A stretch of DNA of 64,000 bases. Origin: Prescottella defluvii. GTDB lineage: Bacteria; Actinomycetota; Actinomycetes; Mycobacteriales; Mycobacteriaceae. The translations under genes and the position numbers were made by a program. The stretch spans positions 2,108,001-2,172,000 of the forward strand of contig CP121458.1 in the NCBI GenBank assembly GCA_029690005.1. The letters run 5' to 3'. The notes under the pieces were generated by a model. That model worked only from the letters and a program-made list of their open reading frames with translations, was not told the DNA's origin and did no database searches. Below, piece by piece: positions 12,693-26,889 of the stretch. Every line of letters begins with the position of its first letter. Position 1 is the first letter of the stretch.

Positions 12693-14180
12693 TCACCCTT
12701 CGGCGCGGCGGCGGTGGACCGACTGCGGCGTGAGGTAGGCGTTCAGGCCCTCGACGCCGAACTCGACGCCCAGCCCGGAGTCGCCGCGTCCGCCGAACGG
12801 TGCGCTGTGGTTGGAGGCGAAGAAGTTGATCCCGACCGACCCCGTGTCGATGCGGCGCGCCACCTCCACGGCCCGATTCTCGTCCGCGGAGAAGACGATT
12901 CCACCGAGGCCGAATTCGGTGCCGTTCGCGATCCGGACGGCGTCGTCGACAGTGTCGTACCGCAGGATCGTGACGACCGGGCCGAAGACTTCCTCGCGGG
13001 CGACCGTCATGTCCTCGGTGACGTCGGCGAAGACGGTGGGCTGGACGAAGTACCCGCGGTCGGTGTCGGCGCGGTCGCCGCCGGTGGTGACCCGGGCTCC
13101 TTCGGCGCGGGCGCCCGCGATGTAGCCGAGGACCTTCCCGTACTGCTCCTTCGTCGCCGACGGTCCGAACACGGTGTCGTCGTCGAAGGGATCGCCCTGT
13201 CGTGCGGCGGCGACGGTCCGGCTGACGATGTCGACCACCTCGTCGTAACGCGACGCGGGCGCCAGGATCCTGGTCGAGATGTAGCAGGTCTGGCCGGTGT
13301 TGCGCATGCAGGAGCGGATGAGCACCTGCGAGAAGGCATCCAGGTCGGCGTCCTCGAGCACGATCGCCGACGACTTGCCGCCGAGTTCGAGCGTGACCGG
13401 CCGCAGCAGTTCGCCGCAGGCCGCGGCGATCTTCCGTCCGACGCCCGTCGACCCCGTGAACGCGACCTTGCGGACCAGGGGATGACGCACCAGACGATCG
13501 CCCACGGCGCCCGTCCCGGTCACCAGGTTGACCACCCCGGCGGGCACGCCTGCGGCCGCGACGGCCTCGACGACGAACCGGATCGACAGCGGCGTCGACT
13601 CGGCGGGTTTGATCACCGCCGTGCAGCCGGCCATCAGGGCCGGCGCCAGCTTGGCGACCACGAGATTGATCGGAAAGTTCCACGGCGCGATGAGGGCACA
13701 GACACCTACGGGGTCGCGGAAGACGGCGGTCGTGCCCTGGCCATTGGGGTACGGCCGCACATCGGCGCTCTCGAGGTACGGCGCCAGCGACGCGAAGTAG
13801 CGGAAGATGCCGGCAGCATCGACTGCGCTGCCCGAGGTTTCGGCGATCGGGCTGCCGTTCTCCCGGGTCGTGGTCCAGGACATGGGCTCGGACCGCTTCT
13901 CGATCTCGTCCGCGATCCGCAGTAGGTACTGCGCGCGGTCGGACGGGCTCAGATCCGACCACCCCGGTCCGCGGAAGGCGCGGTCGGCGGCGTCGACTGT
14001 CGCATCGACGTCGTCAGCGGAGGCGTCCGGCACCGAACCCCACACCTCTTCGGTGGCCGGGTCGACGACGTCGATGCGCGCGTCGCTCGTGGACGTGACC
14101 CAGGTGCCGTCGACGAAGAGATCGTCGACGTGTGTGTAGGGGAGACCGAGCCGGTCCCGGCTCGGCACGGCCCGTGTCAT
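12693..14180 (-). CDS. Aldehyde dehydrogenase family protein
   Basis: A 495-residue NAD(P)-dependent aldehyde dehydrogenase, frame intact. Cofactor and catalytic motifs are in order: FNPINLVV-type APWNFPINLVVAKLAPAL, GSTGVGRKIAAACG, VTLELGGKSSAIV (general-base glutamate) and RNTGQTCYIST (catalytic cysteine). EEVFGPVVTILRYD and the C-terminal SGLGVEFGVEGLNAYLTPQS are typical. It is the last gene of the minus-strand P450/dikinase cluster and overlaps the upstream HD-domain gene by four bases. The likely role is oxidising an aldehyde formed by the cluster's SDR; the substrate is unknown. Confidence 0.93.
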   Translation of the reverse strand: MTRAVPSRDRLGLPYTHVDDLFVDGTWVTSTSDARIDVVDPATEEVWGSVPDASADDVDATVDAADRAFRGPGWSDLSPSDRAQYLLRIADEIEKRSEPMSWTTTRENGSPIAETSGSAVDAAGIFRYFASLAPYLESADVRPYPNGQGTTAVFRDPVGVCALIAPWNFPINLVVAKLAPALMAGCTAVIKPAESTPLSIRFVVEAVAAAGVPAGVVNLVTGTGAVGDRLVRHPLVRKVAFTGSTGVGRKIAAACGELLRPVTLELGGKSSAIVLEDADLDAFSQVLIRSCMRNTGQTCYISTRILAPASRYDEVVDIVSRTVAAARQGDPFDDDTVFGPSATKEQYGKVLGYIAGARAEGARVTTGGDRADTDRGYFVQPTVFADVTEDMTVAREEVFGPVVTILRYDTVDDAVRIANGTEFGLGGIVFSADENRAVEVARRIDTGSVGINFFASNHSAPFGGRGDSGLGVEFGVEGLNAYLTPQSVHRRRAEG

Positions 14181-14823
14181 CGCAGCACGTCCGTCTTCAA
14201 CAGTGCGCGGGACCGATCGAGGTCCGCGACGGCGATCCGATATCCGGCTTCGGTTTTCAGTTCGGGGAGGATCTCGCTCTCGAGTCGGTCGCAGTACACC
14301 GAGGGGGTCATCCCGAACCAGGACGAGGCGAGTGCGATGCCGACGGGGGCGAAGCGCCACAGTCGATCGGCGTCGCGCACGAGTTCGTCCTCGAGGGACT
14401 TGGCGTCCGGGCGCGTGTCGTGGCCGTCGATGATCTCGCAGACACGCTCGACGAACTCGTCGTCGTAGCCCAGCGGTGGAAGCACCTCGCGCGCGATGAT
14501 GCAGCCCTGACGCTCGTGCTCGTATCGGATTGCGGCCTTGCGCCAGTCGCCGCTGAAGCCCTCCGAGATGATCCGCGATTCGTCGACGCGCCCCCATCCG
14601 GTGTCGTGCAACAGGATCGAGACGCGGACGAGAAGCGCGTCCGCTTCCGGGTAGCAGTCGCACAGACGCTCGGCGTACGCGAACGACGTGGGCAGGTGGA
14701 TGTCGTTGCCGCGGGCCCGGGACTCGGCACCACCGACTTCCAGATCGGATCCAGGTCGGTGCCGGCGCCGGGCGCCACGACGATCGGCGAGGTGTCGATG
14801 GGAAGGGCGGTAGGGGTACGCAT
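14177..14823 (-). CDS. HD-domain protein, copy 1 (apparent frameshift)
   Basis: About 215 residues. After a short N-terminus (MRTPTALPIDTSPIVV) the frame changes near 14715-14735, then an HD fold follows: SILLHDTGWGRVDE gives the HD pair, EHERQGCIIAREVLPPLG a helix histidine, and IIDGHDTRPDAKS and VRDADRLWRFAPVG later ligands. It is a clear paralogue of the HD gene at 21.5-22.2 kb (shared LLHD-GW, IIDGHD and DADxLWR motifs). HD proteins are usually metal phosphohydrolases. In a cluster with a dikinase it might act on a phosphorylated metabolite, but this is inference. It overlaps the aldehyde dehydrogenase gene by four bases. Confidence 0.8.
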
Positions 14824-14829
14824 TGCGCA

Positions 14830-16149
14830 CTACCTCGATTCGGGTGAAGTCGAAGCCGAGAGGACGTCCGCGCTCTCGGTGGTGATGGTCTTGAGGGCCG
14901 TCGCGGGGTCGGCCGCGAGATCGGCCGGGATGTCGGCGCCCTTCGCCAGCGCGCCCCGTACGGCCATGAAGTCGAGTGGATTGTTGATGCAGTCCGCGGC
15001 GATGACGCGTCCGGCGCGGTAGTACAGGACCGTGTACTTGCCCTTCGATTCGTCCCGGCGCACGACGGTGGTGTCGTATCCGGTCGACAGGCCCGCGATC
15101 TGCAGCTTCAGATCGCCCTGATTCGACCAGAACCACGGAATGCTGGTGTATTCGGTGCGGCGGCCGGTGAGCGAGTAGGCGGCGATCTTGGCGTGTTCGA
15201 TCGCGTTGTTGACGCTCTCGACACGGATCCGGTCGCCGGGGTCCGCGCCCGGGACGGGGTTGGGCATGTTCGCGCAGTCACCCACGGCGACCGTGGTGCC
15301 GTCGGAGGCCAGCGCGTACTCGTCGACGCGGATGCCGTCGTCGCAGACGAGCCCCATCGTCTGGGCCAGTTCGACGTTGGGGGCGACGCCGATGCCGACC
15401 AGCACGATCTGCGCGGGCAGGACGCGTCCGTCGGCGAGCTCGACGCCCGTCACGGAGCCGTTTGCGCCGGCGATTCGGGTCACCTTGGCGTCCAACTCGA
15501 TTCGCATCGCGCGCTCGCGGTGTGCCTCGAGGAGATGCGCCGACGTCTCCGGTCCGACGGCCCGGCCGACCAGACGCGGCCCGGCCTCGAGCACCGTCGC
15601 GTTCTTGCCCATCTTCAGTGCGCTCGCGGCCGCCTCGATCCCGATGAACCCGCCGCCGACGACGACGATGTCGGTGGCGTCCGGCATGCGCCGGCGCAAC
15701 TCGAGGGCGTCGTCGGCGTTACGCAGGTACAGCACCCCGTCCAGGTCGTGGCCCGGGATGTCGATCGTTCGGGCACGGGCCCCGACGGTGAGCGCGAGAC
15801 GATCGAACGGGAACCTGGTGCCGGACGCTGCGACGGCGACGCCCGATCCGTCGGGCCCGCGTTCGACGGTGGTGATGCGCTCACCCTTGACCAGCGAGAT
15901 GCGGTGCTCGTCCCAGTATTCCGCGCTGCGGAAGATCAGCGACTCGGCGGACACCAGGCCCTGCAGGAACTCCTTGGACAGCGCCGGACGCTGGTAGGGG
16001 CGGTGGTTCTCGTCGCCCAGCAACGTGATGGGCGGGGTGTACCCGAGCGCCCGGAGCGAGCCGGCCAGCTGGACGCCGGCCTGGCTCGATCCGATGATGA
16101 GCAGTCCACCGCCGGCACTGCCGGCAGCGGGGGCGTCTTCGGAAGCCAT
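14830..16149 (-). CDS. FAD/NAD-dependent ferredoxin reductase
   Basis: A 439-residue putidaredoxin-reductase/BphA4-type flavoprotein. The FAD Rossmann motif is LLIIGSSQAGVQLAGSLRALG, in which the usual third Gly is Ser. PYQRPALSKEFL is the family signature, the NAD(H) motif is IVVVGGGFIGIEAAASALKMG, and VAVGDCANMPN binds FAD. It should pass electrons from NAD(P)H to the [2Fe-2S] ferredoxin encoded two bases upstream and so to the cluster P450. The frame is intact and ATG 16149 directly follows the ferredoxin stop. Confidence 0.92.
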   Translation of the reverse strand: MASEDAPAAGSAGGGLLIIGSSQAGVQLAGSLRALGYTPPITLLGDENHRPYQRPALSKEFLQGLVSAESLIFRSAEYWDEHRISLVKGERITTVERGPDGSGVAVAASGTRFPFDRLALTVGARARTIDIPGHDLDGVLYLRNADDALELRRRMPDATDIVVVGGGFIGIEAAASALKMGKNATVLEAGPRLVGRAVGPETSAHLLEAHRERAMRIELDAKVTRIAGANGSVTGVELADGRVLPAQIVLVGIGVAPNVELAQTMGLVCDDGIRVDEYALASDGTTVAVGDCANMPNPVPGADPGDRIRVESVNNAIEHAKIAAYSLTGRRTEYTSIPWFWSNQGDLKLQIAGLSTGYDTTVVRRDESKGKYTVLYYRAGRVIAADCINNPLDFMAVRGALAKGADIPADLAADPATALKTITTESADVLSASTSPESR

Positions 16150-16151
16150 TG

Positions 16152-16472
16152 TCACACCTGCGTTTCCGGCGTGGTCACGTGCAGGTCCATGCAGTCGGTG
16201 AGCTTGACCTGGCAGGACAGCCGGGAGGTGTCCTGCCGATCCACCGCCGTGCCGTAGAGCATCTCGTCTTCCATGTCGTCCATCGCGGGCAGGTCGCCGA
16301 ACTGGTCCGGGCGGACGAAGACGTGGCACGTCGCGCACGACAGCGAGCCTCCGCACTCGGCGACGATTCCGGTGACTCCGTTGCGCATCGCGACTTCCAT
16401 GACGGAATCGCCGGCGCTGCCTTCGACGACGCGGGTGCTGCCGTCGTGATCGGTGTAGGTGACTGTGGGCAT
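16152..16472 (-). CDS. [2Fe-2S] adrenodoxin/putidaredoxin-type ferredoxin
   Basis: A 106-residue plant/vertebrate-type 2Fe-2S ferredoxin. The cluster ligands lie in ECGGSLSCATCH and, about 35 residues later, SRLSCQV: the C-x5-C-x2-C-xn-C pattern of ferredoxins serving bacterial class I P450s. It ends HVTTPETQV, resembling putidaredoxin relatives. With the reductase just downstream it completes a three-component electron chain for the P450 at 20.2-21.5 kb. Confidence 0.94.
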   Translation of the reverse strand: MPTVTYTDHDGSTRVVEGSAGDSVMEVAMRNGVTGIVAECGGSLSCATCHVFVRPDQFGDLPAMDDMEDEMLYGTAVDRQDTSRLSCQVKLTDCMDLHVTTPETQV

Positions 16473-16483
16473 TGCTGCGCCTC

Positions 16484-17221
16484 CTAGATGAACTGTCGGC
16501 CGCCGTCGACGACGAGTGTCTGGCCAGTGATGTACTTGCTGTCCGGACCGGCCAGGAACAGTGCGGCTCCGACGATGTCGTCGGGCCGGCTGGCCCGCTT
16601 GATCGCGCCGCGGTCGACGCCGTAGTTCTCGGCGTCTTCCATCAGTCCGTAGCTCGCCTCGGTGAGGGTGAAGCCCGGAGCGATCGCGTTGACGGTGATC
16701 GACCGTGTGCCCAACTCCTTGGCCATCACCCGGGTCAGTGCGACGACGCCGCCCTTCGACGCGACGTAGTGCATCCAGTGCGCCGATCCACTGAGAATCG
16801 TTGCGGAGGAAAGGTTCACGACCGATCCTCCCTCCGCGAGGTGCGGGCTGCAGGCTCGTGCGCACATCCACGGCCCCTTGAGGTTGACCGCCATGACGCG
16901 GTCCCGTTCGTCCGGGTCGATCTCCTCGAAGGGCGACCGGGTCACGCCGGCGTAGATCGCTGCGTTGTTGACGAGGACGTCGATGTGGCCGCCGCCGAAC
17001 TCGGCGACCGCGGCCGCCATCGCGTCGGTGGATTCCACCGAGGTCACGTCCACGGCGAGCGACATCGCCTCGGTTCCGCGCTCACGGAGCAGTCGTGCCG
17101 TCGCCTCGGCCCCGGCGGCGTCGATATCGGCGACGGCCACCCGGTAGCCGCGGTCGGCGAATCCTTCGGCGAACGCGCGGCCGAGTCCGCCTGCGCCACC
17201 GGTGATCAGAACGGTTCGCAT
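16484..17221 (-). CDS. Short-chain dehydrogenase/reductase
   Basis: A 245-residue classical SDR. Cofactor motif ITGGAGGLGRAFAEGF; an Asp after the second strand (VADIDAAG) favours NAD(H). NNAAIYAG, the catalytic Ser in NLSSATILSGS, and YVASK (Tyr-x3-Lys) are all present. It starts at ATG 17221, with no base between it and the dikinase subunit stop upstream (17223). It probably oxidises an alcohol formed or exposed in the P450/dikinase pathway before the aldehyde dehydrogenase acts. Confidence 0.93.
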   Translation of the reverse strand: MRTVLITGGAGGLGRAFAEGFADRGYRVAVADIDAAGAEATARLLRERGTEAMSLAVDVTSVESTDAMAAAVAEFGGGHIDVLVNNAAIYAGVTRSPFEEIDPDERDRVMAVNLKGPWMCARACSPHLAEGGSVVNLSSATILSGSAHWMHYVASKGGVVALTRVMAKELGTRSITVNAIAPGFTLTEASYGLMEDAENYGVDRGAIKRASRPDDIVGAALFLAGPDSKYITGQTLVVDGGRQFI

Positions 17222-17222
17222 G

Positions 17223-19040
17223 TCACTCGCCCAGGATCGTGACGACACCCTTGGTGCCGTCGACGTGGAGGCGCTGCCCGGTCTTGATCTGCGTCGACGC
17301 GGAGCCGGTGCCGGTCACGGCCGGCAGACCGTACTCGCGGCACACGATCGCGGCGTGGCTCATCATGCCGCCGATGTCGGTGACGGTCGCCTTGATCTTC
17401 CCGAAGATCGGGCCCAGGACGGAGCGGTGACCGGGGCGACGAGGATCTCACCGTCCTGGACGAGAGCGAGTTCGTCGGAACTGGTCACGACGCGGGCCAT
17501 GCCTTCCACGACACCCGGCGACGCGGCCATACCACGCAGGTTGTCGCCGGACTCGTCGTCGTCGCTGAGCCACTGCTGGACCTGCTCGGTGGTGATGCCG
17601 TAGAGCATGCTCGTGAACGGCTCGGTGATGAACTCCGGGGGAGTGTTGAGCGCCGGCTCCGGGCGGCGGGTCTTCAGCGCGTCGATGATGCCTCGACGGC
17701 GTTCGATCTCGGCGGGCCAGTAGTGCGGTCCGGTCGGCTCGGCGCCGACGGCCCACGCGGTCGCGAGGTCGAACAGGGCTTCGCGGACCTCGCCGCGCTT
17801 GAGGTACAGCAGGTCGTCGGCCTCGGGCCAGAACCCTTCCTCCTGCAGCATGCGGGAGAGCTCGCGGACCTTGCGCCAGAACACGCCCATCGTCCAGTGC
17901 TCGATGTAGAAGTTGTGGTTCTCGACGTACGGGTAGGCGGTGCGGGCCAGTCCGAGCTTGGCGTCGAACGTCTCTCGCGTCTCGTCGTCGAGCAGGTCGC
18001 GGTACTCCTCGGCGATCCGGTCGCGCTCGGCGGCCAGTTCGGCGACCGGGCGCATGATGTCCTGTCCCTCGCCGAGGCGCCGGATGTAGTCGGCGATGTA
18101 GCCGAGCGGGAGTTCCTGGTGCTCGATCCAGTACTTGTCGTGGCCGTAGAAGCCGTTGCCGACGGTGAAGTTGAACCACGGATCCTGGGCGCCCTGGTAC
18201 TGGGCGATCCACCGGGCGCCGTTCTCCGCAGCTGCTGCGATCCGGGCCAGGGTGCCGTCCGGGTCGTCCGTGTTGTCGAACAGATCCGTCAGCCCGAGCT
18301 CGACGGCCAGCTTCGCGAGGTTCTTGAGTTCGTCGTCGGGCCGGAACAGCTCCATGTCGACGCCCTGGACCATCGTCGCGATCGACTGATCGGGGATGTT
18401 CGGAAACACCTCCTTGCAGAAGCCGAAGAAATTGAGGTACGCGATGTACCCGAGGTTGAGGAACTCGAAGTGGTACTGCCAGTTCTGGTAGCAGAGCTGG
18501 ATCAGCCGGTCGTAGTTCTCGAGCAGTACCTCGGTGCCGTCCATCGCCTTACCCGAACGGATGTCGTCGATCGACACCATGTCGGGCAGCTTCGCGAACG
18601 ACAGCGCGTTCATCTCGTCGATCGTCCGGCGAACCTTCTTGTGCCACTGCTCGAGCAGCGGCTCCCAGTTCTGGTAGTAGTACGCGGCGCGCTCCTCGAA
18701 CTGCGGTGCGCGGGTGTCGAACTCATCCTCGGGCGCGGGGATCGGCGACATGTACAGGTAGCCGAGGTGCATCTTGAACTCGATGCCGTTGGAGTTCGGG
18801 ATCAGCAGGTGCCGGGTGTTGTACTGGCCCAGGCACTTGACGGCGAATTCACCGCCGATGGTCTCGAACGGCTTGAACACCGTGGGCCAGTGCTGGCTGT
18901 CGCAGAACCAGAACTTGGCGTCGTCGACGTCCTTGCGGTTCGGCTGGAAGACCATGTTGTACGGGTAGAGCTCTTCCCAGCCCTCGGCGCCGGCGGGCGT
19001 CTCGAGGTCGAAGGGGCTCGGAAAGGACTTCATCGTCATG
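17223..19040 (-). CDS. PEP-utilising/dikinase-type protein: substrate-binding domain plus phosphohistidine domain (apparent frameshift)
   Basis: About 605 residues. Residues 1-510 form an unusual Tyr/Trp/Phe-rich, largely helical region (such as YYYQNWEPLLEQWHKKVRR and NFYIEHWTMGVFWRKVRELS). The C-terminus is the swivelling phosphohistidine domain with MAASPGVVEGMARVV and GGMMSHAAIVCREYGLPAV, the histidine that carries phosphate in PEP synthase. There is no PEP-binding TIM barrel and no ATP-grasp domain; the latter is in the next gene upstream. This split resembles phenylphosphate synthase, HpeHI and the two C-terminal parts of rifampin phosphotransferase. The frame changes near 17425-17440. 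ATG 19040 follows AGAGGAAC. Inferred role: phosphorylating a small hydroxylated compound with ATP. Confidence 0.85.
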
Positions 19041-19107: not shown

Positions 19108-21506
19108 TCAGGCGGAGCGCGGCTTGGTCATGGCCCGGCTGATCAAGCTCATATCGAAGGTCCGCCGAGCAGGCTTGGTGGCCTCGGTTGCCTTGTCCTG
19201 AACGGGTTTTGCAGACCACACGGTCTCGGGGCGGGACTGCAGCAGCAGGAGGTTCTCGCCGTCCGGGAGGTCGGCGTCGAGTGCCCACTCGATGTCCTGG
19301 GGGCATCCGTAGTGCTTCTCGGCGCGTTTGGCGATCGCGGCGACGGCCTTCAGTTCCTCGTCGTTCAGGCTCCGGCAGGCGCGGCGGTCGGCGTCGACCT
19401 CACGCTCGACGAGGCGGTGCGAGACGGGATCGGGGACCAGCTCGGCGTGCTTGTCGCCGATCGTCTCGGACACCACGGTCAGCATCACCTTGTCGAGCAC
19501 GATGTTGTCCGGGGTGACCTGACCGGAGACCACCATCTCGCCGACACCGTACGACGCGTCGACGGTGATCTTCGAGCGGTCCCCGTTGGTGGGGTCCATC
19601 GTCATCGCGACGCCGGCGACCTTGGCGCTGACCATCTTCTGGACCGCGACGGCCATCGAGAGCCCCTCGTCGGGGATGTTGTTCTTCAGCCGGTAGGTGA
19701 TCGCGCGGCTGGTGTAGAGCGACGCCCAGCAGCGTCGGATGTGCTCGAGCACCTCGTCGATCCCGTTGAGCCACAGGTACGTGTCCTGCTGGCCGGCGAA
19801 GCTGGCGTCGGGCAGGTCCTCCGCGGTCGCGGACGACCGCACAGCCACCGGCACGGGGTGGTCGAACCGGGACTGCAGGCGCTCGTACGCGTCGATCGTC
19901 AGGCGCCGCAGCGGCTCCGGAACCGGACGCGAGGTGATCGCGTCCCGGATCCGGGTGGAGATCTCGTCCACGCGGGTGACGTCCTCGGGATCGAGGCCCG
20001 CGAGCAGCTCACGGATCTCGTCGGCGATGCCGGCCGTTGCGATGAAGTCGTCGTAGAGCACGGTGGTCAGCGCGAAACCGGGCGGCACCGGCATGCCGGC
20101 CGCCGTCAGCGACACCAGGGACGCGCACTTGCCGCCCAACTGATCGTGCTGCGGCGCCTCCGGGCCGTCGAAGAACTGGATGTACCGGGCCTGCGAGATC
20201 TCGGGGGTCTCGTCCGTGTCCGTGGTGCTCTCGCCGGGTGCGTTCCACCGCACCGGCACCGATGTCGGTGCCCGGAACGACAGGTTCTCGCCGAAGGTGA
20301 TCGCGTCGGGATCGACGAGTTCGAGGAACGGCGCCGTCTTCAGCACTTCCTCGACGACGATGCGGGTCTGGAGCTGGCGAGCATGTTGCCCAGGCAGTAG
20401 TGCAGGCCGAAGCCGAAGGCCAGGTGCTCGCGCGCATTGTCCCGGGTGATGTCGAAGGTCTCGGGGTCGGCGAACTGCGACTCGTCCCGGTTGGCGGAGC
20501 CCATCGCCAGGAGGATCTCGGATCCGGCCGGAATCGGGGTCTCACCGATCATCGTGTCCTCGAGTGCCTTTCGGCGCCATGCGACGATCGAGGGGGAGTA
20601 GCGCAGCACCTCCTCGACGGCCTTCGGGATCTTCTTCGGATCCTCGCGCAGCGCTTCCCACTGGTCCCGGTGGGCGAGCAGCAGTCGCAGCGTGTTGGAG
20701 ATCAGTGTCGTGGTCGTCTCGTGCCCGGCGAACAGCAGGCTGTAGCAGACCGACGCGATCTCGTGATCGGTGATCTCCGTGCCCTCCTGCTGCACGCGCA
20801 CGAGGTCGGCGACGAGGTTGTCGCCGCCGTGCTCGTGGGCGTGGGCGACCAGTCGTCGGCACTCCTGCCAGTATTCGACCAGGTTGTGCGCGTGCGGAAT
20901 CTGCTGCTCGTCGCTCAGATTGCCCCACGTCATCGCGGCGCGGGAGTCGGACCAGCGCTTGTACTGGTCGACCTGGCTGGTGTCGGCACCGATCAGCGTC
21001 AGGATCGTCACGGTCGGCACGTCGTAGGCGAGGTCGCGCAGCAGGTCGCCGCGGCGGTCCTCGTGCGCGAGCAGGGCCCGCAGCTGCTGGTCGACGTTCG
21101 CCCGGATGAACGGCTCGAGCGCCTTGTAGCGACGCGGAGTGAACGCCTTCGAGGTCGCCTTGCGGATGCGGGTGTGCTCCGGTGGCCTCCGGGCGGACAG
21201 GCCGGAGTAGGCGGTGAACCCGCCGTCGTTCATGATCTGCTTCGCCTGCGGCCCCCGTTCACGCACCGGTGCCTGCGCGTTCTCGCTGCTGAAGATCTCC
21301 CAGTTGTCGAAGACGGTCTTGATGTCGTCGTAGCGGGTGACCACCCAGCAGCCGATCCGCTCGTCGAACATGACCGGTTCCGTCGAGCGGAGGCGGGCGT
21401 AGGCCGAGAACGGGTCGTTCATGTCGAACGGTTCGTAGCCATGGTGGTCGACGGGGCAACCACCGGTGGAGACGGTGTCGGTCCTCTTCTGCGTCGGCGC
21501 GGACAT
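19108..21506 (-). CDS. Cytochrome P450 fused to a PEP-synthase-type ATP-grasp domain (apparent frameshift inside the P450)
   Basis: Residues 1-419 are a P450 of CYP116-like appearance: FAGHETTTTLISN (I helix), EEVLRYSPSIVAWRRK (ExxR) and haem ligand FGFGLHYCLGN. The frame changes near 20365, then the usual P450 end continues to LSFRAPTSVPVRW. With no stop the frame runs through a roughly 15-residue Thr/Asp/Glu linker into a PPDK_N ATP-grasp domain (about 434-800): GGKCASLVSLTAAGMPVPPG, VRSSATAEDLPDASFAGQQD and LLLLQSRPETVWS. No stop triplet occurs in any sense frame across the junction, and there is no ATG in the linker. ATG 21506 has AGGAG and begins two bases after the HD-gene stop. The ATP-grasp half should phosphorylate the histidine of the 17.2-19.0 kb protein. 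Confidence 0.82.
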
Positions 21507-21508
21507 GT

Positions 21509-22249
21509 TCACTCCTGGACTCGGGGTGTCGGGTGCTCGTCGAGCGCGGTGTCGGGGGTAATCGTTGTTGCGGAGGACAATTCGCGAAGCTGTGGTGACA
21601 CGTCGGTCGACGCGATCGCGGCGAACCCGCGAGCCATCAGTCGGGCCGGTTCGGTGCACAGGTGGGCGTGGGTGCGGGACCCCACCAGCCGGAGCGTCTC
21701 GGACGGCGCGAGCCCGAACCATCGGCCGACGGTGGCCAGCCCGTGCGGGGTGATCCGCCAGAGCTTGTCGGCATCCTTGACGACCGCGTCGCTGGGGCTC
21801 GTGGCCTCGCGGCGGCTGTCGTGACCGTCGATGATCGCGGCGATCTCGTCGATGTCGGCGTCGGGTGTGCCGAGGTCGGCGAGGATCGACCGGGCGATCG
21901 CGGCGCCCTCGATCTCGTGGACGCGGACCAGTTCCGGGTGCCGCGGCTCCGGTGCGATCGCCTCCAGCACCAGTTCCTCCGGCACCGTCGACCAGCCGAC
22001 GTCGTGGAGCAGGATCGCCGGCAGCACGATCTCGGGCCGCGCTCCCGGCACCCGGTCGATCAGGGCGCGGGCGATACCGAACGCGTACAGCGTGTGAGAG
22101 TCGTTGTCCCGCACTCGAAGATGCGGGGCGGCTCTGCGCCAGACGCGGTCGTGTGCCGGGTCCATGCCGATCAGGTGGGGTACATCCGCGGCGTTCGGAA
22201 CGTGACTCCGGACGTCCCGGCCGAGGAGCCCTGTGCTGTTGGTCTCCAT
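21509..22249 (-). CDS. HD-domain protein, copy 2
   Basis: A 246-residue HD-superfamily protein, frame intact: HTLYAFGIARAL, AILLHDVGWSTVPEE (HD pair), HEIEGAAIARSILADLG, IIDGHDSRREA and VKDADKLWRITPHG. It is paralogous to the HD protein at 14.2-14.8 kb but about 30 residues longer. The ATG at 22249 has a near-perfect AGGAGGA ribosome site. It is the first gene of the minus-strand P450/dikinase operon and couples to the P450 start two bases downstream. A metal-dependent phosphohydrolase role is expected for the fold; the substrate is unknown. Confidence 0.86.
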   Translation of the reverse strand: METNSTGLLGRDVRSHVPNAADVPHLIGMDPAHDRVWRRAAPHLRVRDNDSHTLYAFGIARALIDRVPGARPEIVLPAILLHDVGWSTVPEELVLEAIAPEPRHPELVRVHEIEGAAIARSILADLGTPDADIDEIAAIIDGHDSRREATSPSDAVVKDADKLWRITPHGLATVGRWFGLAPSETLRLVGSRTHAHLCTEPARLMARGFAAIASTDVSPQLRELSSATTITPDTALDEHPTPRVQE

Positions 22250-22325: not shown

Positions 22326-23122
22326 TCAGCCCAGCCAAAAACTACGTATTGCCTGCTCGACGGGCTGCGGAAGCGCCTTGAACACCTTCTCGAGGCGGGC
22401 ACCGGTGCCCCGCAGTGGTGGCAGGTACCGGGTCATGTCCGTCGAACGGTTGCTCGGGAGCACCACGCCGATCGCGGCGACGACCTCGTCATTCGGCGCG
22501 CGGACCGGAATCGCGACCGAGCACGACCCGAGGGCCATCTCCTCCTGCGTCTTCGCGTAACCCTGTTCGCGGATGGTGTCGAGTTCGCGGGCGAGGCGTG
22601 CCGGTTCGGTGATGGTGAACCGGGAGTGGCGTTCGAGGGAGTTGGCGAGGTACGACTCCCGGAACCAGGGATCCTGGTATGCCAGGAGGACTTCCCGACC
22701 GCGGTCGGATGTAGCGGTAGGCGGCTGCCGACACGCGCGAGTCGGGGGACGCGTCGGCTGCCGTAGATGCGATCGACGTAGATCACCTCGGTGCCGCGGC
22801 GCACCACGAAGTGGACCGTCTCGTGGGTGAGGTCGAACAGGTCCTGGAGCGGAGGGTGGACGATGTCGCGGAGTCGGACGCCGGCGTTCTGGCCGATCTC
22901 CCACAGGCGGATGCCGACCTGATATCGACCGTCCGGTACGCGGAGCAGGGCGCCCCACTGCTCGAGCTCGCCGACCAGCCGGTGAACCGTCGTCAGGGGC
23001 ATGTCGGTCTCGGCGGCGATGTTGCTCAACGCGATCGGGCCGGGATCGTTCTCGAACACTTCCAGGATCGCGAGCACTCGCGACGTCGTGGTCCGGCCGG
23101 CTTCCCTGGGAGTACCTGCCAT
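22326..23122 (-). CDS. IclR-family transcriptional regulator (apparent frameshift)
   Basis: About 265 residues. The N-terminal winged helix is TSRVLAILEVFENDPGPIALSNIAAETDMPLTTVHRLV-like, and the effector domain begins VHPPLQDLFDLTHETVHFVV. LHPTAVG is followed by REVLLAYQDPWF, the usual AxGKxLLA region of IclR proteins, and the frame changes there (about 22690-22710). The C-terminal VAIPVRAPNDEVVAAIGV is typical. It lies upstream of and in line with the HD/P450/dikinase operon, so it is the best candidate local regulator of that cluster. Confidence 0.88.
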
Positions 23123-23234
23123 GTCGAACCGCCTTCCGAGTCTCGAGCCCCTCGCACCCAGATCCTGCTCCACCGGGCCGATCGGCACTACCTCGCGCCG
23201 GAGGAGATGGGCGAACCCGGGTCGGCGGTGGGGC

Positions 23235-23831
23235 TCAGGAGTTGTCGTTGCGGAGCAGCCCGAACTGCGGGACCTGCGGCATCGTCGTGACGACGTGCAC
23301 GGTGGCGTCGGCGGTGAGTGACGTGAGCACCCACGGCACGTCGCTCGGGAACTGCACGAAGTCGCCGGGGCCGAGATTGGTGAGTTCGTTCGCCGGGCCG
23401 ACCCGGACCTTGCCGCTGATGACGTACGCGTGGACGAGGGTTCCTGCGGAGTCGGGTGGCCGAACGAGCGAGTCGACCTCGTCGGTTCCGGCGTGCCGGA
23501 GTCGGGTCAGGCTCGTGCGCACGTAACCGGAGCCGTAGATCTGGTCGAGGATCTTGGTGGACCCGGTGTCCGCCTTGTCGTTCCACGATCCTTCCTCGGC
23601 GCGGACGACGAACACGCGGGTTCCCCACTCGGTGACGAGTCGTCGCAGCGGGACGTCCAATGCCTCGGCGATCGCGTCAATGGTTTCGACTGTGGGATTG
23701 CCGACACCTTGCTCGATCTTCGAGAGGGTCTGCTTCGACAGATTCGCGCGCTTGGCGAGGTCGCCCATGCTCATCTGGCGCTCGTTGCGGAACCGCTGCA
23801 CGTTGCGTGCTATCAGGCCGTTGCTGTCCAC
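23235..23831 (-). CDS. XRE-family regulator with C-terminal cupin domain
   Basis: A 198-residue protein. The N-terminal helix-turn-helix (residues 5-65) reads NVQRFRNERQMSMGDLAKRA, then LSKQTLSKIEQGVGNPTVET. The C-terminal cupin has VDSLVRPPDSAGTLVHAYVISG and LGPGDFVQFPSDVPWVL. This two-domain form is common for repressors of small-molecule catabolism, with the cupin binding the effector. GTG at 23831 is chosen because AGGAGG sits three bases before it; longer reading would cross the divergent promoter region. It is divergent from the IclR gene at 24.0 kb. Confidence 0.9.
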   Translation of the reverse strand: MDSNGLIARNVQRFRNERQMSMGDLAKRANLSKQTLSKIEQGVGNPTVETIDAIAEALDVPLRRLVTEWGTRVFVVRAEEGSWNDKADTGSTKILDQIYGSGYVRTSLTRLRHAGTDEVDSLVRPPDSAGTLVHAYVISGKVRVGPANELTNLGPGDFVQFPSDVPWVLTSLTADATVHVVTTMPQVPQFGLLRNDNS

Positions 23832-24039
23832 GGTCCTCCTCTCGGCGGGTGTGCACGGTGCCGCGCGACTCCTTCCAATGAGCTGAATGCTCCAACCGAT
23901 TAAAGCGGAGCCGGACCGGGTGTCACTTTTAGTATCACTATCGTCAATCTTTGACATGCAAATGCCAGGTGGGCACACTCGGATGCGGCGCCTGGTCGCG
24001 CCGGAGATGTCCGTTTCGCAGAGTGAAGTGGTAGGGGTC
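23832..24039. promoter_or_regulatory. Divergent regulatory region between the XRE-cupin and IclR genes
   Basis: 208 bases that are clearly more AT-rich than the surroundings, with TTGACA at 23951-23956 and short repeated TATCACT/TAGTATCACTAT sequence near 23928-23942. It must hold the promoters of both divergent regulator genes. I cannot assign a -10 box or operator with confidence. Confidence 0.45.
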
Positions 24040-24847
24040 ATGGGTGTGCAGGAGTTGACCGATCTGTCGCAGACGAGCTCGGGGCGGGACGGCCGCGCCG
24101 CCGTCGACAAGGCGATGAGCCTGCTCACCAGCTTCGGCCAGGAAGCGCATTCCGGGGTCGGCGTGAGCGAGCTCGCCCGGCGGTCCGGGCTGAGCAAGTC
24201 GACGGCCTTCCGGATCCTCGCCATGCTCGAAGCGCAACCATGCCGTCGAGCGGGTCGGCAGCGACTACCGGCTCGGCGCCGAACTCCACAACCTAGGCGG
24301 CCGCGTGTACGCGCCGCAGCACTCCGTCGTCCGCGACGTCCTCACCCCGTTCCTGGCCGACCTGTACGAGGCCACTCGCCAGACGGTTCATCTCGCGGTG
24401 CTCCACGGCGCCGACATCCTCTACATCAACAAGCTCTACGGTCACCGCTCCGTCGCGTCGCCGTCCCGGGTCGGCGGACGCGCGCCGGCGCACTGCACCG
24501 CGGTGGGCAAGGCGCTGCTCGCGTACTCCGGTCAGGACGCCGAGGGCCTGATCGGGTCGCAGCTGGCGGCGCGGACGACGCACACGATCACCGACATCGG
24601 TCAGTTGCGGGCCGAGCTGTCCCAGGTGCGCAGGGCCGGTGTGGCCTTCGACCGCGAGGAGACCCGCGACGGGCTCGTGTGTGTCGGGGGTGTCGTGACG
24701 GGCGCCGGATCGCGGCCGATCGCGGCGTTCTCCGTCTCGGGTCAGGCCTCCCGCTACTCGCCTGCGAGTGCGGAACCCGCTCTGCGCCGGGTGTGCCTGG
24801 CCGCGTCGCGGGCGTTGTCCGCGTCGCAGGTCGCCCTCGCGTCGTAG
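24040..24847 (+). CDS. IclR-family transcriptional regulator (apparent frameshift)
   Basis: About 269 residues. The winged helix contains AVDKAMSLLTSFG and VGVSELARRSGLSKSTAFRIL. The frame changes near 24236 (MLEAQ to NHAVERVGSDYRLG). The effector domain follows with YEATRQTVHLAVLHGADILYI and HCTAVGKALLAYS. The ATG at 24040 is preferred; another ATG at 24007 would add eleven residues. It is encoded 66 bases upstream of the MhpB-like dioxygenase on the same strand, so it probably controls that gene in response to an aromatic acid. Confidence 0.88.
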
Positions 24848-24913: not shown

Positions 24914-25846
24914 ATGCCAGTCGCGTTGGTTGCGCTGTCCCACTCACCGCTGATCGGGCTCAACGATCCCGCTCAGCAGGTGCTCGACGAGGTCGATCAC
25001 GCCGTTGCCGGGGCGCGGAAGTTCATCGAGGAGTTCGATCCCGAGGTCGTCGTGCTGTTCGCGCCCGACCACTACAACGGCTTCTTCTACGAGAAGATGC
25101 CCCCGTTCGCGATCGCCACGGGCGCAATCGCGGTGGGCGACTTCGGGTCTGCAGAGGGCGAGATCCTCGTCGACGCCGATCTGGCCAACCGGATCGCCGA
25201 AGGTGTGCTCGAGCGTGACATCGACCTGACGATCTCGGCACGCATGGTGGTCGACCACGGCTTCGTGCAGCCCCTCGAGATGCTGTTCGGCGGCATCCAG
25301 TCGGTCCCGGTCGTGCCGGTGTTCGTCAACGGTGTCGCCGCGCCCCTCGGACCGGTGCGCCGCATCCGCCAGTTCGGCAAGGCACTCGGCGAGGCGGCCG
25401 CGCTGCTCGACAAGCGGGTGCTGTTCCTGGCGTCCGGTGGCCTGTCGCACGACCCGCCGGTGCCGATCCTCGCGGGCGCGCCGCCGCGCGTCGCGGAGGC
25501 CCTGATCCTCGGCAACCCGCCCACCCCCGAGCAGCGTGCTCGCGGCGAGCAGCGCGTCGTGCAGTCCGGAATCGACCTGGCGGCCGGCACGTCCACCCGC
25601 AAGCCGCTGAATCCCGAGTGGGACAACGACGTTCTCGACATCGTCGCGTCCGGTGACCTCGAGCAGTTCGACGGTTGGTCCAACGAGTTCTTCGAGGAGC
25701 ACGGCGGCGGGTCGTCGCACGAGGTGCGCACGTGGATCGCGGCGTACGCGGCGCTCGCGGCATCCGGCTCGTACGAGCTGCAGTCGCGGTACTACCGGCC
25801 CATCCCCGAGTGGGTCGCAGGCTTCGCGGTGACGACGGCGAAGTAA
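24914..25846 (+). CDS. MhpB-like class III extradiol dioxygenase (2,3-dihydroxyphenylpropionate type)
   Basis: A 310-residue LigB-family extradiol dioxygenase close to E. coli MhpB in length and motifs: VALSHSPLIGL (early histidine), VLFAPDHYNGFFYEKMPPF and VDHGFVQPLEMLF. FLASGGLSHDPPVP near residue 175 is also characteristic, and the protein ends YRPIPEWVAGFAVT. MhpB uses Fe(II) to cleave 3-(2,3-dihydroxyphenyl)propanoate by the meta route. ATG 24914 follows GGAG. It is the only ring-cleavage enzyme in the window and could serve the dioxygenase cluster at 35-41 kb; substrate assignment is by family only. Confidence 0.87.
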   Translation: MPVALVALSHSPLIGLNDPAQQVLDEVDHAVAGARKFIEEFDPEVVVLFAPDHYNGFFYEKMPPFAIATGAIAVGDFGSAEGEILVDADLANRIAEGVLERDIDLTISARMVVDHGFVQPLEMLFGGIQSVPVVPVFVNGVAAPLGPVRRIRQFGKALGEAAALLDKRVLFLASGGLSHDPPVPILAGAPPRVAEALILGNPPTPEQRARGEQRVVQSGIDLAAGTSTRKPLNPEWDNDVLDIVASGDLEQFDGWSNEFFEEHGGGSSHEVRTWIAAYAALAASGSYELQSRYYRPIPEWVAGFAVTTAK

Positions 25847-25971: not shown

Positions 25972-26889
25972 ATGGTGACTTCGCGGCACCGGGCAGGGGC
26001 CGGAGAACCGGTACTGCTGCTGCACGGCTTCACGCTCTCGCATCACGTGTGGCATCGCGTGGTCGACGATCTGGCGTCGGACTACGATGTCCTGGCGCTG
26101 ACGATGCCCGGGCACTGGGGCGGACCGCGGCTGCGGTGGCGCGACCTGGGGATCGCCGGGATGGCCGACGGCATCGAACGGGAACTCGATGCGATCGGTT
26201 GGGACACATGTCATGTGGTCGGCAACTCGCTGGGCGGCCAGGTCGCGTTCGAGCTGGCGCGTCGGGGCCGGGCCCGCTCGATCGCGGGGATCAACCCGGG
26301 AGGTGGGTGGAAGCGATTCTCCCGCACAGAATTCCGCGTCGGCTTCGGGTTCGTGGCGCAGTTCCCGCTGATGGCGCTCGCTCGGGTGCTCGGTGACCGT
26401 GCCGCGTCGAGCCGGTTCTTCCAGCGCCCCGTCATCGCGAACTGTAGCCACGACGTCTCGGCCATCGATCCCGACGACGCCACGAACGTCATCCGGGCGG
26501 TGTCGCACTGCACCGTGTATCTGCCGATCCTGCTCGCTTTCCTGCGTGACGGCCCGCTGACCGGACTCGACCGGGTCACCGCGCCGACCTCGCTGATCCT
26601 GGCGGAATTCGACACGTTCCTGGCCCGGGACACGTGCATTCAGCGTTTCCTCGACGAACTGCCCGGGCCGGTCGTGGAGATCCCGCTACGCGGGGTCGGG
26701 CACATTCCTCCGCTCGAGGACCCGGACGCGGTGGCAGGTGCGCTGCGTGCGCACCTGGCGAGGGTTGCGGAAATCGCTCTGACGATGTCGGAAGGCGGGG
26801 ACTGTGATGGGCTCGGAGTCGGTTCCGGCGAGGATGCCACGACGGATGGTGTCGTCCGAGGTTCGGGAGATCCTGAACTACTTCGGTAA
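25972..26889 (+). CDS. Alpha/beta hydrolase
   Basis: About 305 residues, alpha/beta hydrolase fold: LLLHGFTLSHHVWH, LALTMPGHWGGPRLRW, nucleophile elbow VVGNSLGGQVAFEL, acid region LILAEFDTFLA and the histidine in GVGHIPPLEDP. ATG 25972 has GGGAGGGGG nearby; an in-frame ATG ten codons earlier is possible. The last 35 residues (after LTMSEGG) are Gly/Asp-rich and overlap the next small gene, so the natural end may be near 26806. Substrate unknown. It could be part of the neighbouring aromatic pathway, but the terminator upstream argues against co-transcription. Confidence 0.8.
   Translation: MVTSRHRAGAGEPVLLLHGFTLSHHVWHRVVDDLASDYDVLALTMPGHWGGPRLRWRDLGIAGMADGIERELDAIGWDTCHVVGNSLGGQVAFELARRGRARSIAGINPGGGWKRFSRTEFRVGFGFVAQFPLMALARVLGDRAASSRFFQRPVIANCSHDVSAIDPDDATNVIRAVSHCTVYLPILLAFLRDGPLTGLDRVTAPTSLILAEFDTFLARDTCIQRFLDELPGPVVEIPLRGVGHIPPLEDPDAVAGALRAHLARVAEIALTMSEGGDCDGLGVGSGEDATTDGVVRGSGDPELLR

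Follow-up and report, generated by a model that had tools for sequence, protein, structure and literature searches.

Gene content of the locus

The window, a stretch of 64,000 nucleotides from Prescottella defluvii (contig CP121458.1, positions 2,108,001 to 2,172,000), contains a minus-strand gene cluster that includes a cytochrome P450. The CreJ-type P450 body was located in frame 0 from 21506 down to 20343, with an ATG start at 21506. It matched the Pfam p450 model (E 5.2e-29) and was 74% identical (266 of 358 residues, E 5.8e-184) to PDB chain 5xjn_A, which is titled simply "Cytochrome P450" and which we take to be CreJ. A CreI-type PPDK_N (ATP-grasp) coding region follows at 19108..20184 (minus strand), ends with TGA at 19110-19108, was assigned using Pfam and is 87–96% identical to its counterparts in four relatives of the same genus.

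The next gene on this strand (17223..19039) encodes a CreH-type partner with a substrate-binding and a swivel (phosphohistidine) domain. It carries a deletion near 17416 and was identified through the intact copy of a same-genus relative (L032:10768-12579), which matched PEP-utilizers at 1.8e-23 and scored 1153.5 bits against a cut-off of 650 with NCBIfam NF006150, a family still titled hypothetical protein. In its motif, GGMMSHAA, a serine precedes the catalytic histidine. The remaining minus-strand genes were assigned using Pfam and synteny: an SDR alcohol dehydrogenase in the CreG position (16484..17221), a 2Fe-2S ferredoxin (Fer2) in the CreF position (16152..16472), a ferredoxin reductase (Pyr_redox_2 and Reductase_C) in the CreE position (14830..16149), and an aldehyde dehydrogenase (Aldedh, 1.4e-157) in the CreC position (12693..14180). 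An HD-domain phosphohydrolase in the CreD position (14177..14823, minus strand) has a private deletion near 14728; its two pieces are 88% and 99% identical to the intact copy L032:14970-15614 (HD, 2.7e-09). The gene order P450, ATP-grasp, CreH, SDR, ferredoxin, ferredoxin reductase, HD, aldehyde dehydrogenase is common to L032-L035 and L129.

Directly upstream of the P450 lies a second HD-domain gene (21509..22249, minus strand; Pfam HD 9.9e-10; intact in L032), the product of which is about 38–41% identical to the HD protein in the CreD position. It occupies the same place in L032-L034 and L129, was not found there in L035, and stands upstream of the IclR gene in L036, L037, L130, L131 and L134. 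Beyond it, an IclR-family regulator (22326..23122, minus strand; IclR_C/HTH_IclR) is frameshifted near 22694 according to the deletion alignment.

Several further genes were noted in the surroundings. An ORF with a Cro/C1-type helix-turn-helix domain (23238-24224, minus strand) lies between the IclR and dioxygenase genes. An intact MhpB-like 3-carboxyethylcatechol 2,3-dioxygenase (24914-25843, plus strand; NF009910, 483.2 bits against a cut-off of 291) is 98% identical in L033 and L034, where it also adjoins the cre operon, and just 3' of it lies an alpha/beta hydrolase ORF (about 25975-26889). This stretch possibly represents a neighbouring ring-cleavage route.

A plasmid origin of the region was considered and rejected; the best plasmid matches were Rhodococcus proteins (R. 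oxybenzonivorans, R. ruber) of just 70% identity. The region looks chromosomal because matches to the groL and guaB genes lie in an adjacent part of the window.

The junction in the window

ORF reading placed the end of the P450 body at a TGA (20342-20340) after CLGNMLASSRPASSSRKC. The last approximately 45 residues of the P450 share another frame with the linker and the PPDK_N domain, and this frame appears in the ORF list as an entry of its own from 20346. Within this one open frame, the P450 C-terminus (...LSFRAPTSVPVRW) is followed by an acidic linker of 20 residues and then by the complete PPDK_N domain, which occupies residues 68-388 of the 412-residue ORF (Pfam E 1.8e-108). The C-terminal tail (20245..20379, minus strand; ...LKTAPFLELVDPDAITFGENLSFRAPTSVPVRW, last residues VPVRW) was delimited from the ORF reading and the junction DNA. 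The linker, NAPGESTTDTDETPEISQAR (20185..20244, minus strand), varies in its residues and stays in frame in the fused relatives. The loss of a single A near 20376 puts tail, linker and PPDK_N domain out of frame with the P450 body.

The initial annotation had described the P450 as reading straight into the PPDK_N domain, which is correct for the tail, linker and domain but not for the P450 body, which stands in another frame and terminates at TGA 20342. Two of its observations were reproduced: from about 20335 past the start of the ATP-grasp domain all three sense frames are free of stops, the next ones after TGA 20342 being at 20108, 20011 and 19110, and a codon scan of the window's linker was negative for ATG.

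Missing bases and quality of the assembly

The junction DNA reads ...CTCGCC-AGCTCCAG in the window and ...CTCGCCAAGCTCCAG in three same-genus relatives, that is, GCC-AG against GCCAAG. This private one-base deletion (AA to A; minus strand, site approximate at 20376) was called from a four-way alignment of about 10.7 kb comprising the window, L032, L033 and L034, as were those at approximately 22694 (iclR), 17416 (creH) and 14728 (HD gene). A fifth, at 23152, precedes the IclR start by about 30 bases. Each of the five shortens a run of 2–5 equal bases relative to at least one relative. Deletions that shorten short runs of identical bases are a known type of long-read error. Altogether, eight length changes that are not multiples of three are private to the window; the three besides these five lie at alignment edges or outside genes. 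L032 has five such changes, L033 one and L034 one; those of the relatives lie outside genes, except one at the extreme end of the L032 aldehyde dehydrogenase.

Outside the window, rpoC of the same genome (G000, contig C1, 1929435-1933213) is also broken into two overlapping frames. Among the five genomes compared it is split only there and forms one frame of 1328–1329 codons in G002, G003, G008 and G013. The gene is essential; frameshifted genes of the G000 assembly should be read with caution.

The creJ frameshift of the window is most likely an assembly error, because it is absent in close relatives, similar deletions occur in neighbouring genes and rpoC is split. Alternatively, the strain could carry a truly truncated, inactive creJ in a pathway that is decaying, as the frameshifts in creJ, creH, the HD gene and iclR would suggest. 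We regard this as quite improbable: the essential rpoC is frameshifted as well, the assembly is 79% complete in 5 contigs, and the deletions sit in runs of 2–5 identical bases. Moreover, the amino-acid identity to L033 is 91–97% for the upstream HD protein, CreJ, CreI, CreH, SDR, ferredoxin and ferredoxin reductase, and 95% for the aldehyde dehydrogenase. Programmed frameshifting at 20376 was ruled out; the relatives read through the site without a shift.

Fused and split copies in other genomes

When 121 genomes were searched, four more from the same genus matched the whole 412-residue ORF, P450 tail included, at 86–94% identity; these matches sit in open frames of 851–1064 codons. Intact P450-linker-ATP-grasp frames are present at these four loci (L032, L033, L034 and L035) and at L129 of genome G138, which belongs to a second genus. 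Two of the intact fusions were scanned with Pfam, and both domains were found in the 799-residue L032 protein and the 792-residue L129 protein.

Within the genus the locus occurs in 5 of 14 genomes, that of the window included (E <= 1e-80). The family sample yielded it in 16 of 401 genomes, namely the same five, G138 with the fused form and ten with the split form. Further matches at E <= 1e-90 numbered 3 in the order sample (397 genomes) and 16 in the class sample (394 genomes); a CreJ gene adjoins in 3 of these 19, and all three are split. Overall, creJ stands directly before creI at 23 of the 49 loci examined, fused at six, one of which has the frameshift of the window, and split at 17, for example on contig C2 of G285 (L135). 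Homologous clusters that always encode two separate proteins, which the initial annotation had named as evidence against a fusion, are thus not what was found, and the search for the P450 plus PPDK_N architecture that it had proposed returned five intact copies in other genomes.

Two outlying loci were noted. A creJ-creI-creH cluster of about 51–57% identity and different gene order lies at 4195-8202 of L043, from a metagenome-assembled genome labelled Runella sp. (Bacteroidota), and reflects either distant spread or mis-binning. At L139 (G500), CreI and CreH are 66–69% identical to the fused type, and no CreJ was found directly upstream.

A reading in which the fusion is merely an artefact of the window assembly, a missing base or a substitution hiding the usual creJ stop and creI start, draws on the one-base deletions in creJ, creH, the HD gene and iclR, on the split rpoC, and on the 17 of 23 clusters that have two genes. 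It is contradicted by the uninterrupted fusion in five other genomes. Three same-genus genomes with the fusion, G002, G008 and G013, are single-contig assemblies with complete rpoC, and G013 has no in-frame ATG, GTG or TTG between the ATG of the P450 haem loop (-201) and the TTG at +45 in CreI. For the relatives this reading is already refuted, and we consider it extremely improbable as an account of the fusion. The intact relatives also bear out the earlier argument that a single-base error could not be hiding a normal stop and restart. A real P450 plus PPDK_N fusion is supported by the five intact copies.

Trees were built for 23 loci each, and the six fused loci came together in those of CreJ (100/99), CreI (91/83) and CreH (100/100). 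One origin of the fusion is the simplest reading because the six group in all three trees; the CreI tree backs it moderately. The join is present at every locus found on the fused branch, in two genera.

Among the 17 split clusters, the creJ stop is 8–41 bases from the aligned CreI start in 15 and 69 (L132) and 85 (L137) bases from it in the others. In five of them (L036, L043, L130, L132 and L133) creJ and creI are already in the same frame, separated by two stops in L132 and by one in each of the others; in such clusters in-frame stop loss would therefore join the two genes. The fusion probably arose by loss of the creJ stop codon, a route suggested by this comparison of split and fused clusters.

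The linker and alternative CreI starts

The linkers of the six fused loci measure 20, 20, 20, 20, 14 and 7 codons (7 in G138) and contain no stops. In a comparison of four sequences, third-position GC was 0.95 in the linker against 0.68 and 0.69 in its flanks, and second-position GC was not low, unlike in the flanks. Changes at the three codon positions numbered 21, 21 and 30, and pairs of these sequences gave 47 non-synonymous and 11 synonymous codon differences. A loosely constrained spacer would give such a pattern. Because its residues are barely conserved, a fine-tuned interface is not indicated.

Alternative starts that could release CreI as a separate protein were sought at the junction. 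Besides the haem-loop ATG, the scanned stretch holds no start codon position common to the five intact fused loci. The window has in-frame GTG codons at 20259 and 20253, within VPVRW, and these are not a conserved start because G013 has GTA at those places; a separate CreI initiated from them was accordingly rejected. A TTG near CreI codon 16 (+45; +42 in L129) occurs in the window, L032, L033, L034 and L129 and is not preceded by any stretch flagged as Shine-Dalgarno-like. Initiation there is unlikely because about the first 15 residues, five of them invariant, would be lost and because the TTG is absent in L035. In the relatives the fused gene probably yields one protein.

Relation to known systems

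By the enzyme types that it encodes, the operon matches a cre-type 4-alkylphenol pathway, in which the fusion would combine CreJ (P450) with CreI, the ATP-grasp subunit of the aryl kinase CreHI. All enzyme types of the Corynebacterium glutamicum cre pathway (CreHI, CreJEF, CreG, CreC and CreD) are present. The two-component kinase is represented by the PPDK_N domain of the window together with the PEP-utilizers domain and MSHAA motif of the L032 CreH, and the cluster also holds the ferredoxin, ferredoxin reductase, alcohol and aldehyde dehydrogenases and HD phosphohydrolase. The identification draws on this enzyme set and on the match of the P450 to 5xjn_A. In C. glutamicum CreJ and CreI are separate proteins, whereas in this clade they make up a single polypeptide; this concerns gene structure and not a defining chemical feature. 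A further difference is the second HD gene that directly precedes creJ in the window, L032-L034 and L129.

Passages of PMC12167813 and PMC9618137 state that CreHI starts 4-cresol breakdown through phosphorylation and that in its homologue HpeHI the I protein is the ATP-grasp subunit and the H protein the swivel subunit. HpeHI, the hydroxyphenylethanone kinase of Rhodococcus rhodochrous GD02, and the phenylphosphate synthase PpsAB are likewise two-component dikinases with an ATP-grasp subunit and a substrate-binding/swivel subunit; in both, according to a passage of PMC12167813, the ATP-grasp subunit is a separate protein, whereas here it is joined to a P450. The same source gives serine as the residue before the catalytic histidine in CreH and PpsA and cysteine in HpeH. 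The cysteine, a single-enzyme observation, is replaced by serine in the L032 CreH.

Rifampin phosphotransferase (RPH) and PEP synthase have an ATP-grasp domain of the same family as the CreI part. It is joined to swivel and substrate domains in these enzymes, not to a P450; for RPH, the one-chain arrangement of the dikinase domains is described in a passage of PMC12167813. A PEP synthase (pyruvate, water dikinase) function was rejected. The L032 protein scored 339.6 bits against a cut-off of 598 (NF005057) and 331.6 bits against 739.75 (TIGR01418), both models matched over the first approximately 350 positions only, and the single chain of ATP-grasp, swivel and pyruvate-binding domains was not found. 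The genome of the window has a second, distant PPDK_N locus of 38% identity.

Natural P450-reductase fusions of several types are known. A natural fusion of a P450 with a peroxidase/dioxygenase, CYP5619, is described in PMC5919972. Such fusions likewise carry a second enzyme domain, but theirs are redox enzymes; in the present case the P450 is joined to the ATP-binding half of the kinase for the preceding step.

Proposed function

The cre system adds a phosphate so that the P450 can oxidise the alkyl carbon of the phenol; the P450 follows the kinase and works on the aryl phosphate, and the phosphatase comes last. Du et al. reportedly found that CreJ acts on the aryl phosphate after phosphorylation. 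The initial annotation had proposed that an oxidised product is channelled to a phosphorylating partner; that order is reversed because the kinase acts before the P450, and passages of PMC12167813 and PMC9618137 place phosphorylation by CreHI first. Its other suggestion, a physical anchoring of the dikinase ATP domain to the P450, is possible.

We consider it highly probable that this is a cre-type operon in which creJ and creI have been fused to one gene for a protein of about 800 residues, in which the tether would keep the P450 near the kinase at a 1:1 ratio. This reading is built on gene identities, gene order, the in-frame fusion in relatives and the single branch in three trees; the activities, the substrate and any benefit of the tether are predictions from these. 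The CreI half would bind ATP and phosphorylate the swivel-domain histidine of the separate CreH, which would then transfer the phosphate to a 4-alkylphenol. The encoded ferredoxin and reductase would supply the electrons with which the CreJ half oxidises the alkyl carbon of the aryl phosphate; the SDR and aldehyde dehydrogenase would complete the oxidation, and the HD phosphohydrolase would take the phosphate off. Through the tether, the P450 would sit close to the kinase supplying its substrate, in a fixed 1:1 ratio.

The partner tied to the P450 is the ATP-binding subunit CreI; CreH, which would hold the phenol if it resembles HpeH, is a separate protein. Any gain would then depend on the P450 being close to CreH at the time when CreH is docked on CreI for phosphorylation. 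CreI may not stay with CreH, because no stable complex forms between the related HpeH and HpeI (PMC12167813). We think a plain tether with fixed stoichiometry no less likely than a true improvement in transfer.

The fused gene could also be real but mechanistically neutral, replacing translational coupling, with independent halves and a tether that fixes the ratio only. The distances of 8–41 bases between creJ stop and aligned CreI start in 15 of 17 split clusters are in keeping with this, as is a short, variable, spacer-like linker that shrinks to 7 residues in G138. The retention of the join at every locus on the branch, in two genera, points the other way and is nevertheless compatible with neutrality. 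We judge this a plausible account that falls a little short of an even chance. It differs from the preferred reading in the benefit of the tether alone, and the likelihoods of the two are not additive. A stronger proposal would be a bifunctional kinase-P450, in which CreH and the CreJ-CreI chain form a single unit that phosphorylates an alkylphenol, the aryl phosphate is handed directly to the tethered P450 and the phosphate serves as an unreleased protecting group and handle; this we hold to be speculative and rather unlikely.

The pathway itself is known; the fused variant appears to be new. The statement in the initial annotation that it knew of no described P450 fused to this half of a dikinase holds for the matches listed in the open-licence literature, among which no report of a P450 plus ATP-grasp dikinase fusion appeared, the two founding papers of the cre pathway lying outside that scope. 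The portion of PMC13101518 at hand treats other cresol routes and does not mention creJ or creI, and that of PMC10879549 reports docking with chain 5GWE and does not contain the words "glutamicum" or "cresol".

Two neighbouring enzymes of an alkylphenol pathway, the P450 and the ATP-binding kinase half of the step before it, are thus probably combined in one protein in a small actinobacterial group. PMC9549646 describes the cre system rebuilt in E. coli for synthesis. A natural join of a kinase subunit to a P450 would be a compact part for engineering and a ready test of whether proximity is of benefit in tag-then-oxidise chemistry.
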